Part shown: positions 6,813 through 14,130 of the stretch, piece after piece
How positions within the stretch are numbered: position 1 is the stretch's first letter
Layout: every line of letters starts with the position of its first letter
NCBI RefSeq assembly: GCF_022012335.1
Contig: NZ_JAKLTO010000007.1
Span: forward strand, 62,001 to 126,000
DNA: 64,000 bases
Direction of reading: 5' to 3'
Source: Flavobacterium sp. SM15
GTDB lineage: Bacteria; Bacteroidota; Bacteroidia; Flavobacteriales; Flavobacteriaceae
The notes under the pieces: generated by a model
The model's input: the letters and a program-made list of their open reading frames with translations, nothing else
Database searches by the model: none
What the model was told of the DNA's origin: nothing
Position numbers and translations under genes: made by a program

Positions 6813-7304
6813 TTGATACGACCAACCCCAAAAATCGTTCAGCTTACCCAAAAGAAACTCGTTGGCAAACGACTCTTCATGTCCTTTGCCAACAACAAAA
6901 CAGCTGAACTTTGGAGAAGTTTTATGCCAGAACGAAAGCAAATTTTGAATACCCTTACAAACCAGTTGTATTCGTTACAAGACTATCCCTTTAATTTTTT
7001 TAGCGAATTTTCACCTGAAACTGTTTTTGAAAAATGGGCCGCCATAGAAGTTACGGACTTTGAAAATTTGCCTCAAGACATGGAGTCTTTACTTCTTCCC
7101 GCTGGGTTGTATGCGGTTTTTCAGTACAAAGGAAAGCCGGAGGAAGCGACCGATTTTTTTAATTATATTTTTCAAGAATGGCTTCCCGCTTCTGAATATT
7201 TGCTGGATGAGCGACCCCATTTTGAAGTATTGGGAGAAAAGTACCGCAACGACAGTCCGGATTCGGAAGAGGAGGTTTGGATTCCGGTTAGGAATAAGGG
7301 TTAA
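6813..7304 (+). CDS. GyrI-like / AraC effector-binding domain protein
   Basis: 163 residues. The order KKLVGKRLFMSF..NKTAELWRSFMPERK, then YAVFQYKG and a C-terminal FEVLGEKY..EEVWIPV, is that of stand-alone GyrI-like small-molecule-binding domains, which bind hydrophobic cations or drugs and appear as effector domains of AraC/MerR regulators. The start codon is TTG at 6813; the family conservation begins only a few residues later, so an ATG at 6879 would cut into the domain. Its end overlaps the end of the convergent SpaB_C-type gene by 4 bases. Confidence 0.72.
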   Translation: MIRPTPKIVQLTQKKLVGKRLFMSFANNKTAELWRSFMPERKQILNTLTNQLYSLQDYPFNFFSEFSPETVFEKWAAIEVTDFENLPQDMESLLLPAGLYAVFQYKGKPEEATDFFNYIFQEWLPASEYLLDERPHFEVLGEKYRNDSPDSEEEVWIPVRNKG

Positions 7305-8203
7305 GCTCTACTTACTTCCAAAGACGGTTCAATCTCAAGAGATAATTCTGAATCGACCTTGGAATGATAACACCTTGTCTTGTAGAAACGGAACAGGTGA
7401 TCGTACACTATCAGTTCGTAATAGCGCTGTCGGGAAGTAAATTGACGGTTAAGCATCATGTGAATATGACTTGAAAGAAAATCGTTTAGCGGAATTTCCA
7501 ACGAATTCAAAACAGAATCGGCCAAGCATTTAACCTTAATATTGCGCTGCACAATAGGACCGTTAAGTTCCTGAAAACCGATTAATTTCTTATTGTAAAG
7601 ACATTCTTCCGCCTTAACTTTAATGCTGCGGTAATTTTGATCCAGTTCTTTTTTTAAGGTTTTATCCGCCTGAAATTCTGTTTTGAAAGCCTCTTGTAAT
7701 TTTTCAAGTAACGATAATTTTTGTGTATCACAAAGCAAAAAAGCATCTAAAAAACCATCAATAGCCACAAAACTGAACAACAACTGCTCCTGGTCTCTGG
7801 AAAAAGAAGGCTTAACCATTAAATAATTCATGAACAAATCACTGTCGTAAGAAAAAATCGACTCCGAAGCTTCCATAGTGGCAATTCCATAACGTTCCAG
7901 TTCCCTTTGGTAGGTATCAATTTGTACTTTCCAAATTACATCTTCTGACAACAATGCATCAAAAATCAAATGTAACCGCTCAACAACCTGAAAAATACCT
8001 GAAGGACTCGCACAATGAAACCGGAGCCGCAAATGTTCATGCGGGTCGCGATAACGGATAAAAAACCATTTATCAATTAACGTCTCCTCTTTAAAGGCAT
8101 GAATATAGGGTGTTAAATCTTTTAGCAGAGCATCCGCACTTTTTACTCCAAGATAAACCTTAAAATACAGCCATTCGCTTCCAACGCAAAAACTCCGTTT
8201 CAT
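7301..8203 (-). CDS. lantibiotic dehydratase elimination domain protein (SpaB_C / thiopeptide-type biosynthesis)
   Basis: 300 residues. The N-terminal WLYFKVYLG and the block WFFIRYRDPHEHLRLRF (46-62) are the hallmark of the SpaB C-terminal domain. In LanB dehydratases this domain removes glutamate from glutamylated Ser/Thr to leave dehydroalanine or dehydrobutyrine. Here it is a separate protein, as in split systems such as thiopeptide TbtB/TbtC. It starts 6 bases after the stop of the glutamylation protein and is the last gene of the operon. No cyclase gene follows. Confidence 0.85.
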   Translation of the reverse strand: MKRSFCVGSEWLYFKVYLGVKSADALLKDLTPYIHAFKEETLIDKWFFIRYRDPHEHLRLRFHCASPSGIFQVVERLHLIFDALLSEDVIWKVQIDTYQRELERYGIATMEASESIFSYDSDLFMNYLMVKPSFSRDQEQLLFSFVAIDGFLDAFLLCDTQKLSLLEKLQEAFKTEFQADKTLKKELDQNYRSIKVKAEECLYNKKLIGFQELNGPIVQRNIKVKCLADSVLNSLEIPLNDFLSSHIHMMLNRQFTSRQRYYELIVYDHLFRFYKTRCYHSKVDSELSLEIEPSLEVSRA

Positions 8204-8209
8204 CTCTCC

Positions 8210-10420
8210 TTATGCGGTTTGCTTATAATAGGAAAACACGAATTGATTGGTAAACCCTTGACCCTGAGAATTTTTCACAACAGCATCATCTGAAAACAAA
8301 AACTCCTCCAATACAATTTTAGAATACTTTCCTACAGATTTAAGAAGCAGTTCTACAGAGATCAACTGCTCCAAATCCAATAAAAGTGTATTGTCAGAAG
8401 GCACCCAATTTACATACCTTGAAACTTGTCTTTCTCGCCTCCAGTTCGAAAAATGCTCTAACAGCGCAACGCCATTCAACATATAAAAGTGCTGTAATTC
8501 TTCTTTATCAATTATCCATCTGGCTTTGGCCAAGACCACCTCTTTGTAAACCACTCTTGGAAAAAAACGATGATGGTGTTCCAAAACTCCCCAACTGAAA
8601 TTATAAATAGGTTTACTGTACTGGAACTGTAAATCGCATAAAAAATGATAGACCGGCAAAACTGTACCGGAGTAGTTGTGTGCCGTAGACAAGCAAGGGT
8701 GTACTTCTTTATTGTGCTTTTTAGAGCGTAAGACCACAACATCGTTCCTAACACTTACCATCAAATCGTCTAAGCCAATTACACGATCGGATGTCACACC
8801 CGGGTTGCAGAGGTACGGAATTTCAAAAGTTCTTAAAACCGGTCTACGCAAAACATTACAGGTTCGGGCTTCGGGGATATGAACGATTTCCGCAAAAATT
8901 ACATCGTTTTTATGCGTTTCTTCTGCCACAACAATTGACTGAGTCAGATCATGAATCGCCTTGTTTCCACTACAAAACCTCCCTAAAAGTTTAGCCGCAC
9001 TCGTGTTTCCGGATGACTCAAGCACAACCGTTTCAACACCCTTATTTTTCACGAGTTCAACCATAACCGAAAAGCTAGCGGGAGTTGCCTCCCAGTCAGA
9101 ATTAAAGTCTGGAAAATCTTTCTCCGAAAGGTACAGGATTGCTTGGTTTTTATTTTGACACCCTTTTAGCTTTTCTTCCAAGAGATAATCATAAGAAGAC
9201 CATGCTTGTAAAACCTTTGGTCCACTTTTTTCCTTAAAAGAAAAACGATCCAAAAGCGGATGCGCATCGTTAATTTTAGCCTGCTGCAGGTAGCCTATCC
9301 CTGTTTCATTGTCCAATACGATTGCCAATGGCATTTCTCTGGTTTCATAACGCTCCTGAAAAGCTATAACAAAATCCCTCAGGCTTGTTGGGCTGTTTTG
9401 GGGACGAATTCCATTTAAAAAACGAAGGGCTTCCAAAGTTTTAACAGAAAAAGAAGCATCGAGTTTATTTTCACGAGTTGAAAGACTTAAATCCGTCTGA
9501 AGCAAGTATTTTCGATCAACTGCTACTTCAATTTTTTCAATCAAAGCATCTAATTCTCGATAATTATCAGACGCAGGAATTATATTGTGATCCAGCAGTT
9601 CAAGCCTTAATTTCAGTTCATAAAAAACCTGAAGCTCCTCCTTAGGCAGATCTGTTCGGTTAAGAATTGCAAAGAAAGCATCCCACACCTCATTGCCTGT
9701 CACCCGAGGATCCAACTCGCTAATTAACAACTGAGTTTCAATTAAATGATTAACATACGCTCTAGCTTCGTTTATTTCCGACTCATTTTCAACAAGATGT
9801 TCAATTAACTCATCAATCGTTGCACCATTTTGGGCTTTGTCTAAAAGCTTTTCCAAGGTTGGACTTTTTCTCAGTGCCGAAATTTTATGCTCCCGTTTCA
9901 ATTTCAAAGAAGTAAATTCAACGTACCTGTAAAAATCGCCTAAAACATAAAGAGAAGTGTTTGGAAAATAGCGTAAACCAGATCTAACCAATTGATTATT
10001 GGTCAATTTTTCCAGTAAAAGCATCCAAAAGCACATGTCAAATTGGGAAAACCTAATATACTGGTCCTTTGTTGTTAGCTCAACAGAATTTGTAGTCCCG
10101 AAGTTTCCGACAGCGCAGCCAGCAAACAATCCAAAAGGGGTGCATCGGGAAGAACTACGAGCCAAATACTTTAAAAACGTGAGCTCAAGGCTCTTTTGCT
10201 TTCCTTTGGTTAAAGCCTTCGGGTTTTCAATGTATTTTTTTAAAAAATGGACTAAATCGGGAGAAGCAATATGGATCGCTTCTTCAAAATAAGGATCCTG
10301 AATAATTTCTCGCAATCGCATTTCAGAATAATCCTCTAACAATTCCAAATAAACTGATAACGGGAAGGCGGGCGTTCGTAAAACGTAATTTGAAAACGAT
10401 TTAATTTGATAACGAGGCAT
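8210..10420 (-). CDS. lantibiotic dehydratase, glutamylation part (LanB N-terminal type)
   Basis: 736 residues. The motif ARSSSRCTPFGLFAG (87-101) is the signature of LanB N-terminal domains, which use glutamyl-tRNA to glutamylate Ser and Thr of a precursor peptide. A full-length NisB-like protein is ~1000 residues; this one ends where the elimination domain would begin, and that domain is encoded by the next gene. Its ATG lies inside the end of the peptidase gene (20-base overlap). The substrate is presumably the Thr-rich peptide encoded at 12077-12280. Confidence 0.88.
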   Translation of the reverse strand: MPRYQIKSFSNYVLRTPAFPLSVYLELLEDYSEMRLREIIQDPYFEEAIHIASPDLVHFLKKYIENPKALTKGKQKSLELTFLKYLARSSSRCTPFGLFAGCAVGNFGTTNSVELTTKDQYIRFSQFDMCFWMLLLEKLTNNQLVRSGLRYFPNTSLYVLGDFYRYVEFTSLKLKREHKISALRKSPTLEKLLDKAQNGATIDELIEHLVENESEINEARAYVNHLIETQLLISELDPRVTGNEVWDAFFAILNRTDLPKEELQVFYELKLRLELLDHNIIPASDNYRELDALIEKIEVAVDRKYLLQTDLSLSTRENKLDASFSVKTLEALRFLNGIRPQNSPTSLRDFVIAFQERYETREMPLAIVLDNETGIGYLQQAKINDAHPLLDRFSFKEKSGPKVLQAWSSYDYLLEEKLKGCQNKNQAILYLSEKDFPDFNSDWEATPASFSVMVELVKNKGVETVVLESSGNTSAAKLLGRFCSGNKAIHDLTQSIVVAEETHKNDVIFAEIVHIPEARTCNVLRRPVLRTFEIPYLCNPGVTSDRVIGLDDLMVSVRNDVVVLRSKKHNKEVHPCLSTAHNYSGTVLPVYHFLCDLQFQYSKPIYNFSWGVLEHHHRFFPRVVYKEVVLAKARWIIDKEELQHFYMLNGVALLEHFSNWRRERQVSRYVNWVPSDNTLLLDLEQLISVELLLKSVGKYSKIVLEEFLFSDDAVVKNSQGQGFTNQFVFSYYKQTA

Positions 10421-12080
10421 TCTTTTTTCGTTTACTTATTTTTTTAGCAAGCTTCATCGCATTATATACATTCAAAACCTTACCTGATTTAGACAGTTCT
10501 GAAAAATGGGCTTTAACTCCTTTTTTTCCCGGTACTAAAACTTCCAAATCATAAGCAGTTCCGGAGTTCATGATAATTTGTTTGACTTCTTTAGCAGATA
10601 AATTAGGATAGTACAACCAGATTAAAGCTGCTGTTCCTGAAACCATAGGTGCGGCAAGAGATGTTCCTGAATCGAAAACGTATTTATTACCGGGTGCAGT
10701 GGTATAAATTTCTTCTCCGGGAGCAAATAGGTCTACGTTTTGCTTGCCGTAGTTGGAGAAACCGGAAACAAACGTACTATCTAATCTACGAGATGTAGAG
10801 CCTACGTTGATGAAGTTTGTACTAATTTCAACACTTTCTCCATCATATCCAATATCATTAGGAAAAAAAGGATTAAAATCAATATTGTAGCTATTATTTC
10901 CTGCCGAATGAACAATTAAAACCTCATGCTTTTCTGCGTATTTAATAGCATCCAAAACCAATTCTTTTTCAGCTGAAAAGCCTTTACCAAACGACATATT
11001 TATCACTTTTGCACCATTATCAACAGCATAACAAATTGCTTTGGCAATATCTTTATCATGCTCGTCACCTATAGGAGAAATATTTAATGGCATAATTTTT
11101 ATTTTGACTGAAAAACCTATCGCGCCAATTTTATTAAATCTATTCGAAGAGATAACACCTGCAACTTTAGTACTATGATGTTGTAACTTTATAAAATCAT
11201 TCACTTTATTATTTCAATAATTAATACTATTTTTTAAATCAAAATTCATGATATCTACCCTTTCATTGTAATCAAAATCTAAACACTTTTTCAAGATAAA
11301 ATTTTGTTGATCAGCTTTATCAATCAAATAGTCAATTGAATTAATATTCAATTCTTTATTTACCATCATTGAATGAATTAAAGCTGCAAAATCTTTATCA
11401 CCTGCATCTCTCTTTTCCCAAAAACTTTTTCCATTTCCATAAATTTTATACAAGCTATCTAATTTACTATAAGTGTAATCTTCTTTTGGAAAATAATGTT
11501 TAAGAGTATCTTTTGCCAATGGAAAAAGAACAATTCCATACTCTAATGACTTCAAATAATTTTGATAATAGTTTTTCTCTTTTTTAAAAAATGCAATTGC
11601 TCTTTTGTATTCTTTAAAATCTTTTGGGCTGTTTAGAGTATCCAATTCAAACTTTTCTTTTGATTTACGAATCAATCTTATATAATCAAAATTACTCCAT
11701 ATTAGATTTTGTCCGTTTTTTCCACCTAAAAAACTCCATCCATTTACATCATCCACATAGCCATTTTGATCATCATCTATCCCGTTGTCCGGAATTTCAC
11801 CTTTATTTATCCATATTTGACTTTTAAGATCTTCATGATTAATATCTAGCTGACTATCTAATATTGCGACTGTGATATTTTGCTGCGTATTGTTTTTCCC
11901 AACATTTTTATCACACCATTTATCCAAAGATATCCCAGGAATCTCATTGTTGTGAATATCTTTATGAAACCATCCGTAGAGATTATCTTTAGGATTTGAT
12001 GCCGTTATATTATTACTAACTTTACTATTAGCACATTTTACTAAAAAAAGACAAAGAGCAATCCTGAAAAAAAGTTTCAT
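10401..12080 (-). pseudogene. S8 subtilisin-like peptidase (LanP-like) interrupted by one in-frame TGA
   Basis: Two open stretches, 12080-11214 and 11213-10401, lie in the same frame and are separated only by TGA at 11216-11214. Together they encode a complete S8 peptidase of 559 codons: hydrophobic N-terminus with a possible lipid-anchor Cys16 (LFLVKC, but Lys at -1 is unusual), catalytic Asp75 in AILDSQLD, His302 in HHSTKVAG, oxyanion Asn in HSAGNNS, and Ser474 in GTSLAAP. Each half alone lacks part of the triad. The stop sits at codon 289 in the context NY*NNKV; flavobacterial S8 relatives usually have Gly here (YGNN), so GGA to TGA is the likely change. The downstream half has no good start (GTG at 11204). 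A sequencing error is possible. Its ATG overlaps the precursor stop, so its role was probably leader removal. Confidence 0.8.
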
Positions 12081-12280
12081 TGAAGAGTTTTATTTGTCTT
12101 ATCTGTTGTTGTCTTACTTGTAGTATCCTGACCTCCACAATAATTTGTTGATTGATTTACTGTCACTGTTACTGTATCTTGATCACCAGTTCCATCTCCT
12201 GCTTTTATTGATTTCAAATTTTTCAACCTTACTACTTCAAATTTTTCTAATTCGAATTTTCGATTTTTACTCTTTTCCAT
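12077..12280 (-). CDS. candidate RiPP (class I lanthipeptide-type) precursor peptide
   Basis: 67 residues from the ATG at 12280 (a TTG two codons upstream is less likely). The first ~28 residues are charged and look like a leader (RKFELEKFEVVRLKNLKSIK) ending in an AGDG segment where GG-type leaders are cut in Bacteroidota natural-product precursors. The rest, about 37 residues, has 12 Thr, 2 Ser and a single Cys, including TVTVTV, NQSTNYCGG and SKTTTDKTNKTLQ. Such a core suits a LanB-type dehydratase. The stop overlaps the peptidase ATG (ATGA). At most one thioether could form from its own Cys. The family match is by eye only. Confidence 0.72.
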   Translation of the reverse strand: MEKSKNRKFELEKFEVVRLKNLKSIKAGDGTGDQDTVTVTVNQSTNYCGGQDTTSKTTTDKTNKTLQ

Positions 12281-12423: not shown

Positions 12424-14130
12424 TTAAAAACTATTTTTCTTAATCAATTCTTTAATAAAATAACTTGGCTTAATTCCTGTTTTCTTATTAAAAGCATTAG
12501 AAAAAGACTCTGCATTATTAAATCCAAACTCTAGAGCTAGGGCAGAAATCGTATACTTAGTTAACTTATTATCCTGTTGAAGCAACCTAATTGCATTATC
12601 AACTCTTAAATCATTAATATATTGGCTAAAAGAAACGCCTTTATGAGTATTAACAATTTTAGAAACATATTTGCTGTTAGTTTCAAATTCTTGAGAAAGC
12701 AATTGAATTGTAATATTGGAATTTAAATACCCTTTATCTTTCTCGAATTGGTTGAGTTTCTTTAATATTTGACCTATTATTTCATCTGAAATTCCAATTT
12801 CTTCAGTTTTATCTCTAATTACAGATTCAACATTTTTCCCCTCGTTTAAAACTCCAATAAGTTCAATTTCATTTTTATTAATAATTTTTTCAAATCTATT
12901 TCTAAAGATTCTTTTTTGATTTTCTTGATAAATGCCGAAACAACTTAAACCAATGGTGAGAAAGATAAGACCTCCAATATAATAAGTCGAAGCTTGCTTG
13001 TCTTTTCTTAAATTATCAATAAGATTTTCTTTGTTCTCCACCAAATGTGGGATGTCGTATTCTTTATTAAGAAGCTTATAAAAATGCTTATAATTTCTTT
13101 GTAAAACACTGTCAATGCCCATAAGTCTTTGTAGATAATTCAACTGATTTTTACTATCTCCATTCTCTTTATAATAATTGATTAGAAAATTATATCCCCC
13201 TAAGAATTCAGGTGTTATATTATTGGTAACTTTATACATTGAGTCAACTTTAATATAATTCTTTAAAGCCATTTTTTTTTGATTCATACCTTCATACGCT
13301 TTTCCTAAGTAATAATAGGAGGCCAATGTATTCATCTTATCATCATACTCTTTCATTTTTGGCAAGGCTTTATTTATACTGTCAAGAGCAACCGTAAAAT
13401 TTTTTCTTAAAACCTGATTGGCTCCTTCATTTAAAACAAACAAATACTTATTCCTTTCGATATCCGTCGCAATTGCTTCCCTATGTCCCCATTCATTATA
13501 ATAGGTCGCTGAATCTGTTTGTTTAAGTGCTTTGTGCGCATCGGCAATAGCAAATAAAATAGTTTGAAAAAGATTTGAAAACTGATAACCTCTGATATCC
13601 TTTTTTATATAAAAAGACAAACATTCACGATACATTATCAATGCTTCTTTTACCTCTCCTAAATCTTCGGACTTTAACACCCCAATAAAAAACTTAACTT
13701 TGTGATAATCCTCTTTCTTATTTTTTAAAGCATATTTTTCAGCAATTAAATAATTATTCATTGCTTCTCTAAATTTAAATTGTTTCTTAAGGATGTAAGC
13801 CTTTTCACAATATGCAGATATAGGAAAGAAATCATCATTGGTATTGATTGAGTATTTAACTACACTGTCTAAATATTTTATAGCAGTATCTTCTTTATTC
13901 ATTAAAGAAAACAAATAATAAGCTCTAGCCTTAAAAATCGGATCTGTATCGCTCTTTGCTTTTTTCAAATACATACTCGCATAATACTCTTTTTTTGAAA
14001 CATTTTTAACGTTATCAAAATAGGCACTCCACAAATCTTGATAGGAATAATTCTTTTTAGGACTTTGCCCTGATAAAAACAAAGGGAAAAGCATTATGTA
14101 GAATAATTTTACATATACAAATCGGTTCAT
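12424..14130 (-). CDS. membrane-anchored TPR / AraC-type transcriptional regulator
   Basis: 568 residues. An N-terminal hydrophobic signal (YIMLFPLFLSGQS), then TPR-like helical repeats to ~370, one transmembrane helix (YIGGLIFLTIGLSCFGIYQ, ~380-400), a linker, and a C-terminal AraC double helix-turn-helix (~465-560) with ISALALEFGFNNAESFSNAF and KKTGIKPSYF. The sensor part would lie outside the cytoplasmic membrane and the DNA-binding part inside. Such one-component regulators are common in Bacteroidota. It is encoded just upstream of the RiPP operon on the same strand, 143 bases from the precursor start, and is its likely regulator. The ligand is unknown. Confidence 0.8.
   Translation of the reverse strand: MNRFVYVKLFYIMLFPLFLSGQSPKKNYSYQDLWSAYFDNVKNVSKKEYYASMYLKKAKSDTDPIFKARAYYLFSLMNKEDTAIKYLDSVVKYSINTNDDFFPISAYCEKAYILKKQFKFREAMNNYLIAEKYALKNKKEDYHKVKFFIGVLKSEDLGEVKEALIMYRECLSFYIKKDIRGYQFSNLFQTILFAIADAHKALKQTDSATYYNEWGHREAIATDIERNKYLFVLNEGANQVLRKNFTVALDSINKALPKMKEYDDKMNTLASYYYLGKAYEGMNQKKMALKNYIKVDSMYKVTNNITPEFLGGYNFLINYYKENGDSKNQLNYLQRLMGIDSVLQRNYKHFYKLLNKEYDIPHLVENKENLIDNLRKDKQASTYYIGGLIFLTIGLSCFGIYQENQKRIFRNRFEKIINKNEIELIGVLNEGKNVESVIRDKTEEIGISDEIIGQILKKLNQFEKDKGYLNSNITIQLLSQEFETNSKYVSKIVNTHKGVSFSQYINDLRVDNAIRLLQQDNKLTKYTISALALEFGFNNAESFSNAFNKKTGIKPSYFIKELIKKNSF

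Follow-up and report, generated by a model that had tools for sequence, protein, structure and literature searches.

What could a class I LanB dehydratase make from a small precursor peptide when no LanC cyclase is encoded beside it? This question is raised by a gene cassette in the window, i.e., the whole stretch of 64,000 nucleotides analyzed from Flavobacterium sp. SM15. The cassette includes the following features.

12424..14130, minus strand: regulator of 568 aa with an N-terminal signal-like segment (by eye), TPR repeats and a C-terminal AraC-type HTH (HTH_18).
12077..12280, minus strand: putative precursor peptide gene, 67 aa, with the leader at about 12191-12280 and the core at about 12080-12190.
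12137..12151, minus strand: S-T-N-Y-C, the conserved family motif (S/T)(S/T)xxC around the sole Cys.
11214..12080, minus strand: N-terminal part of an S8 peptidase with a lipoprotein-type signal (by eye) and the catalytic Asp, cut off by an in-frame TGA (11214-11216).
10401..11213, minus strand: C-terminal part of the S8 peptidase in the same frame, with the catalytic His, oxyanion Asn and catalytic Ser.
8210..10420, minus strand: LanB N-terminal protein (glutamylation), PF04738, 736 aa, E 2e-132.
7301..8203, minus strand: LanB C-terminal protein (glutamate elimination), PF14028, 300 aa, E 2.1e-62.

The first-pass annotation of this DNA had described a 67-residue ORF with an AGDG junction and a Thr-rich core, which it took for the precursor of a LanB system. 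Recounting agreed with this description: the minus-strand ORF 12280..12077 starts with ATG and encodes 67 aa, and by hand count the 37 residues past AGDG contain 12 Thr, 2 Ser and 1 Cys. The proposed precursor role was borne out by a search with a precursor HMM (E<0.01), which identified a family member at 38/39 cassette loci and none at the remaining locus, L061. A lack of similar leaders next to other LanB genes would have refuted the first-pass annotation, and this search went in its favor. Because this leader recurs beside LanB at 38/39 cassette loci, the ORF is confirmed as a real gene beyond chance. Between the window and 16 relatives, the leader codons differed at positions 1, 2 and 3 with frequencies of 0.28, 0.29 and 0.55, respectively (336 codon comparisons), i.e., position 3 differed at roughly double the rate of the other two. 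Judging from this codon pattern, the leader is conserved as a protein and its frame is under protein selection. The window leader, F-E-L-E-K-x5-L (FxLxKx5L), fits LxLxKx5L with F in the first place. In the relevant part of a lanthipeptide survey, LxLxKx5L, often with a GG ending, is the leader motif of the class I LanAs of Bacteroidetes (PMC7268733). With such a leader and a core containing Ser/Thr and Cys, the window peptide has the features of a candidate class I precursor. The curated models of NCBIfam and Pfam gave no usable family and were set aside: the window peptide had no match in either up to E 1, and NF038153 was weakly matched by 2/17 relatives, with a best E of 0.0017.

Comparison of the loci revealed a conserved Flavobacterium cassette in the order of TPR-AraC regulator, precursor, peptidase, LanB glutamylation protein (LanB-N) and LanB elimination protein (LanB-C). 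The regulator lies upstream of the precursor and the S8 peptidase, LanB-N and LanB-C lie downstream, on the same strand. Once six duplicates had been removed, the comparison included 39 loci, the window among them, in 38 genomes, with L070 and L073 on one contig. LanB-N and the regulator (whole or part) were found at 39/39 loci, LanB-C at 38/39 (the contig of L081 ends first) and S8 peptidase genes at 35/39. The Flavobacterium records came from the best 80 of 519 relatives in a LanB alignment search, so that the 33 Flavobacterium loci represent the nearest relatives and not all. In 11 of 100 other Flavobacterium genomes sampled, LanB homologues with identities of 45-52% (cut-off 45%) were found with the same cassette. 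When 397 genomes of the taxonomic family were searched with a single sequence, one weak relative was identified besides the window, and a scan of genome contigs with the window LanB alone identified none. An alignment search of the 397 family genomes (E<=0.01) matched 27, including that of the window, in 22/237 genera; most of these matches are candidates for the cassette. The window genome (2.99 Mb, 46 contigs, rated 100% complete) contains one LanB. Only three short matches came from a search of plasmid DNA, two of them annotated as S8 peptidase.

Neighboring genes were surveyed as ORFs of >=70 codons within ~6.5-8 kb on each side, where the contig reached. Besides precursors, the commonest further neighbors were HlyD-like genes at 7 loci and C39 transporter genes at 6/39. 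Since no neighbor beyond the cassette occurred at more than seven loci, the cassette has no conserved hidden cyclase gene as a neighbor. No exporter gene was found inside the cassette, and the two C39 transporters of the window genome are on other contigs. No immunity gene was recognized among the conserved neighbors of the cassette either. At L038, L058, L063, L070 and L083, cassette genes for the regulator, LanB-N or LanB-C are split, which suggests repeated decay of the cassette. L039:1778-11174 contains a single whole LanB pair and one S8 peptidase alongside two regulators, three precursor ORFs and the remnant of a LanB-N; it is a partly decayed tandem of the cassette.

Both PF04738 and PF14028 scored above their cut-offs in the window LanB pair. 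NisB residues Y80, R83, R87, T89 and W616 correspond to Y85, R88, R92, T94 and W635 of the window LanB-N, and NisB R784, R786, E823, R826 and H961 correspond to R59, R61, E101, R104 and H248 of LanB-C, as counted by hand on printed alignments. All ten residues were invariant in 12 homologues. NisB E823 is presumably an important residue for dehydration. According to the mutant descriptions excerpted from PMC4341554 and PMC4979651, Y80F and H961A abolished dehydration by NisB, mutants of R83, R87, T89 and W616 dehydrated less and R784A slightly less, while R786A, R826A and H961A stalled at glutamylation. The LanB-C model (pLDDT 83.5) matched MadB, MibB and NisB first (E 1e-12 to 8e-9), and [4+2] cyclases ranked below these LanB dehydratases (E 1e-6 and weaker). 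The pair is thus predicted to be a class I LanB with both glutamylation and elimination parts.

The presence of the elimination part bears on whether the LanB pair might instead add amino acids to a scaffold peptide, PEARL-like, without dehydration. We take small LanBs without an elimination domain to be of the PEARL type. Such small LanBs are described in a section of PMC4979651, and transfer of amino acids to a scaffold peptide is the PEARL activity described in part of PMC11962472. A peptidase is linked to the cassette and many relatives have a similar C-terminal stretch, SSxxC, both of which would suit a scaffold peptide, but here the elimination domain is present, with its elimination residues, in the adjacent LanB-C, the model of which is nearest to LanB dehydratases. 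PEARL-like addition was rejected as very improbable. Goadsporin and thiopeptides offer another comparison, because they also involve a split LanB and no LanC. Goadsporin has two dehydroalanines, as stated in the literature excerpts consulted, and in both goadsporin and thiopeptides dehydro residues are made without LanC, as proposed for this cassette. The window genome, however, had 0 PF02624 (YcaO) matches, so azoles would not be expected, unlike in goadsporin and thiopeptides, and a thiopeptide reading was rejected on this ground. Different from thiopeptides, moreover, the LanB-C model appears nearer to eliminases than to [4+2] cyclases.

The first-pass annotation was right about the Thr-rich core, which proved peculiar to the window member: with 12 Thr, compared with 0-7 in the other 41, no other core among the 42 distinct precursor ORFs is as rich in Thr. 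The number of Cys per core in these 42 ORFs was one in 29, two or three in 4 and none in 9. Ser/Thr was found at position -3 of 33/38 Cys, at -4 of 31/38 and at -5 of 0/38. In 10,000 shuffles of the cores, Ser/Thr at -3 had a mean of 6.1 and a maximum of 14, a test that overstates significance and gives no clean probability because the sequences are related. Ser/Thr was missing from -3 for the Cys of L073, the second Cys of L047 and the three Cys of L089. This spacing would suit a thioether ring of 4 residues, (S/T)xxC, and its strictness suggests that most members are meant to carry a ring and that purely linear products are not the rule. Five of the nine Cys-less ORFs (L038, one of L039, L058, L060 and L081) have a full leader after ATG. 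The others are doubtful: the second L039 ORF is truncated, and those of L059, L063 and L067 have no ATG before the leader. L038 and L058 have a split regulator gene, and the cleanest Cys-less case is L060 (F. hiemivividum), with an open cassette and no LanC found in the genome.

Candidates identified with a general leader pattern, which misses precursors without GG/AG (L040, L063) and may admit unrelated ORFs, had a mean of 3.8 Cys at LanC loci (48 candidates at 20/28 loci) and 1.1 at loci of this cassette (37 at 32/39). With the same pattern, the mean was 1.6 at other loci without LanC (38 candidates at 21/30 loci). Two cassette-locus candidates identified by this pattern contained 4 Cys. At L037 the leader anchor was placed too early, so that leader was counted as core; its Cys counts were unaffected.

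None of the 39 loci contained LanC inside the cassette, and the window genome had 0 PF05147 (LanC) matches. The window cassette thus lacks the cyclase of class I lanthipeptides. LanC was found somewhere in 14/38 cassette genomes and not found in 24/38: it was present in 11/32 as well as in G437, G481 and G484, and absent from 21/32 as well as from G452, G410 and the window genome. Completeness was not given for these 32 cassette genomes, some of which are MAGs, and therefore some of the LanC absences may be gaps. LanC was lacking in 7/12 cassette genomes rated >=99% complete. At L043, a LanC at the end of the fetched stretch adjoins a neighboring LanB cluster, outside the cassette. In a LanB tree of 94 rows, built with a quick method and rooted at the midpoint, the window fell in a 38-row clade (SH-aLRT 100), all members of which were without LanC within 6 kb. 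This label is imperfect, as it was also carried by L105, L107 and L119 of the 26-row LanC clade; L107 has a LanC piece further off than 6 kb. L070 (split LanB), L111 and L122 (short contigs) and six duplicate loci were dropped from the tree.

These LanC counts also bear on whether the product could be an ordinary one-ring class I lanthipeptide whose ring is closed by an enzyme acting in trans, either an unlinked LanC or an unrecognized cyclase. The (S/T)xxC spacing around most Cys and the 14 cassette genomes with LanC elsewhere would both be expected of such a product, as would the report, in part of a review, that lanthionine rings form spontaneously above pH 7.5 with the wrong stereochemistry (PMC7296275). 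Against this, no PF05147 match was found in the majority of the cassette genomes, including that of the window, Cys-less members exist, and no additional gene is shared by most loci within ~6.5 kb. We consider cyclization in trans unlikely. From the same report, closure without LanC would be possible, although unusual for a natural product.

Similar to the precursor, the peptidase gene was compared across the loci. A working peptidase coupled to the precursor is not supported in the window: an in-frame TGA at 11214-11216, which the first-pass annotation had not noted, interrupts the gene at a Gly invariant in 42 other aligned S8 copies. Of the six S8 hits in the window genome, only that of the cassette has an internal stop. 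Recoding of this UGA was considered, but a single stop is no evidence for recoding. Elsewhere the gene is well kept: in the alignment, from which a 40-aa fragment of L079 was dropped, the window peptidase departed at two of the 88 columns invariant in 42 copies, namely the stop and one more, and intact copies left out in turn departed at up to 7. As the peptidase is otherwise uneroded, any loss would be recent; the interruption is either recent or an error. The ATGA in which the precursor stop overlaps the start of the peptidase gene had been taken to tie the two genes together. The overlap is present but untypical. With peptidase starts chosen by a signal-peptide rule, the gap measured in 35 pairs ran from -8 to 231 nt, with overlap in only the window and L063, and we rejected it as evidence of coupling. 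What most loci share is thus a neighboring peptidase gene and not an overlap with it. At L047:5756-7918, an S9 prolyl oligopeptidase with a signal-like N-terminus fills the slot between precursor and LanB. At L078, L080 and L082 no S8 gene was seen and the slot has little room, and L063 and L086 each have three tandem S8 peptidase genes per cassette.

The window cassette could also be decaying, with a dead peptidase and with a Thr-rich core that reflects relaxed selection and not a designed product. That the core is long as well as exceptionally Thr-rich, and that broken cassette genes recur in relatives, would agree with decay; the other four window genes, however, are open at full length, the precursor keeps its leader and the S-T-x-x-C motif, and, the stop aside, several intact peptidases match or exceed the single departure of the window copy from the invariant columns. 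Decay of the window cassette is therefore improbable in our estimate.

The best reading, with a probability of roughly 60%, is that the cassette encodes a LanC-independent class I dehydratase pathway with the precursor as its substrate. The split LanB would bind the FxLxKx5L leader, glutamylate core Ser/Thr from glutamyl-tRNA and eliminate glutamate to yield Dha/Dhb. Without LanC, at most one small thioether would form, between the single Cys and a Ser/Thr three (or four) residues before it, and its closure could be spontaneous or brought about by the dehydratase complex or an unlinked protein. The earlier suggestion of one ring at most, with the other dehydrated residues left open, would thus fit the single Cys, its Ser/Thr-x-x-Cys context and the lack of LanC. 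Cys-less members would stay linear dehydro-peptides. After export, the lipoprotein-type subtilase, or at L047 the S9 peptidase, would remove the leader, and the TPR-AraC regulator would control the cassette. Because the window subtilase gene is interrupted, this last step is probably impaired in the window or carried out by another S8 paralogue.

The cassette best fits a variant on known class I chemistry, apparently sharing several features of class I lanthipeptides and lacking LanC. As LanC is missing and the other features are present, we call the predicted product LanB-dependent and withhold the name lanthipeptide pending its observation; members without Cys would not be lanthipeptides at all. 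Similar to Bacteroidetes class I lanthipeptides such as pinensins, as described in part of PMC7268733, the cassette has a split LanB, the LxLxKx5L leader and cores with Ser/Thr and Cys. Different from these split LanB and LanC systems, however, it has no LanC, often none genome-wide, its cores mostly contain one Cys or none, and at most loci a peptidase gene lies between precursor and LanB. Some cyanotin cores also lack Cys and cannot give lanthipeptides (PMC7268733, in the excerpt concerned), as in the Cys-less cassette members. Cyanotins are LanM substrates, whereas the cassette uses class I LanB and no cyclase. Leader peptidases of the NisP type are S8 subtilases within the cluster that carry an export signal. 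The S8 peptidase of the cassette is alike in both respects but differs in being of lipoprotein type, in its up to three tandem copies, in its replacement by S9 at L047, in its absence from three loci and in its interruption in the window.

We further suggest, tentatively and with considerable doubt, that a whole class I dehydratase lineage does without cyclases, the dehydratase alone defining the chemistry. Its products would be short, electrophilic dehydro-peptides with at most one small ring that closes by itself, and they may be signals and not bacteriocins. In this reading, the peptidase would act at the surface and the TPR regulator would be a membrane sensor. The signaling idea stems from the constant presence of the regulator and the lack of a recognized immunity gene among the conserved neighbors. 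The lanthipeptide survey of PMC7268733, in its methods as excerpted, was seeded on LanC (PF05147), and such clusters could therefore be found only where LanC lies within seven genes; a LanC-less dehydratase family could go unseen in LanC-seeded surveys. The open-licence PMC literature, as far as its excerpts extend, yielded no description of LanC-less LanB clusters or of this Flavobacterium family. The cassette may be among the 29 Flavobacterium-specific RiPP gene-cluster families mentioned in part of PMC10734526. It also provides a natural test of whether LanB alone makes a defined product, and of whether a ring at the conserved (S/T)xxC can close in the absence of LanC and, if so, with what stereochemistry. 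Finally, split-LanB loci with similar leaders and no LanC nearby were also observed in Chryseobacterium (L108, L123, L134-L136), Tenacibaculum (L120, L130) and other family members (L090, L034); their cores were mostly Cys-poor or Cys-less and their gene orders differed.
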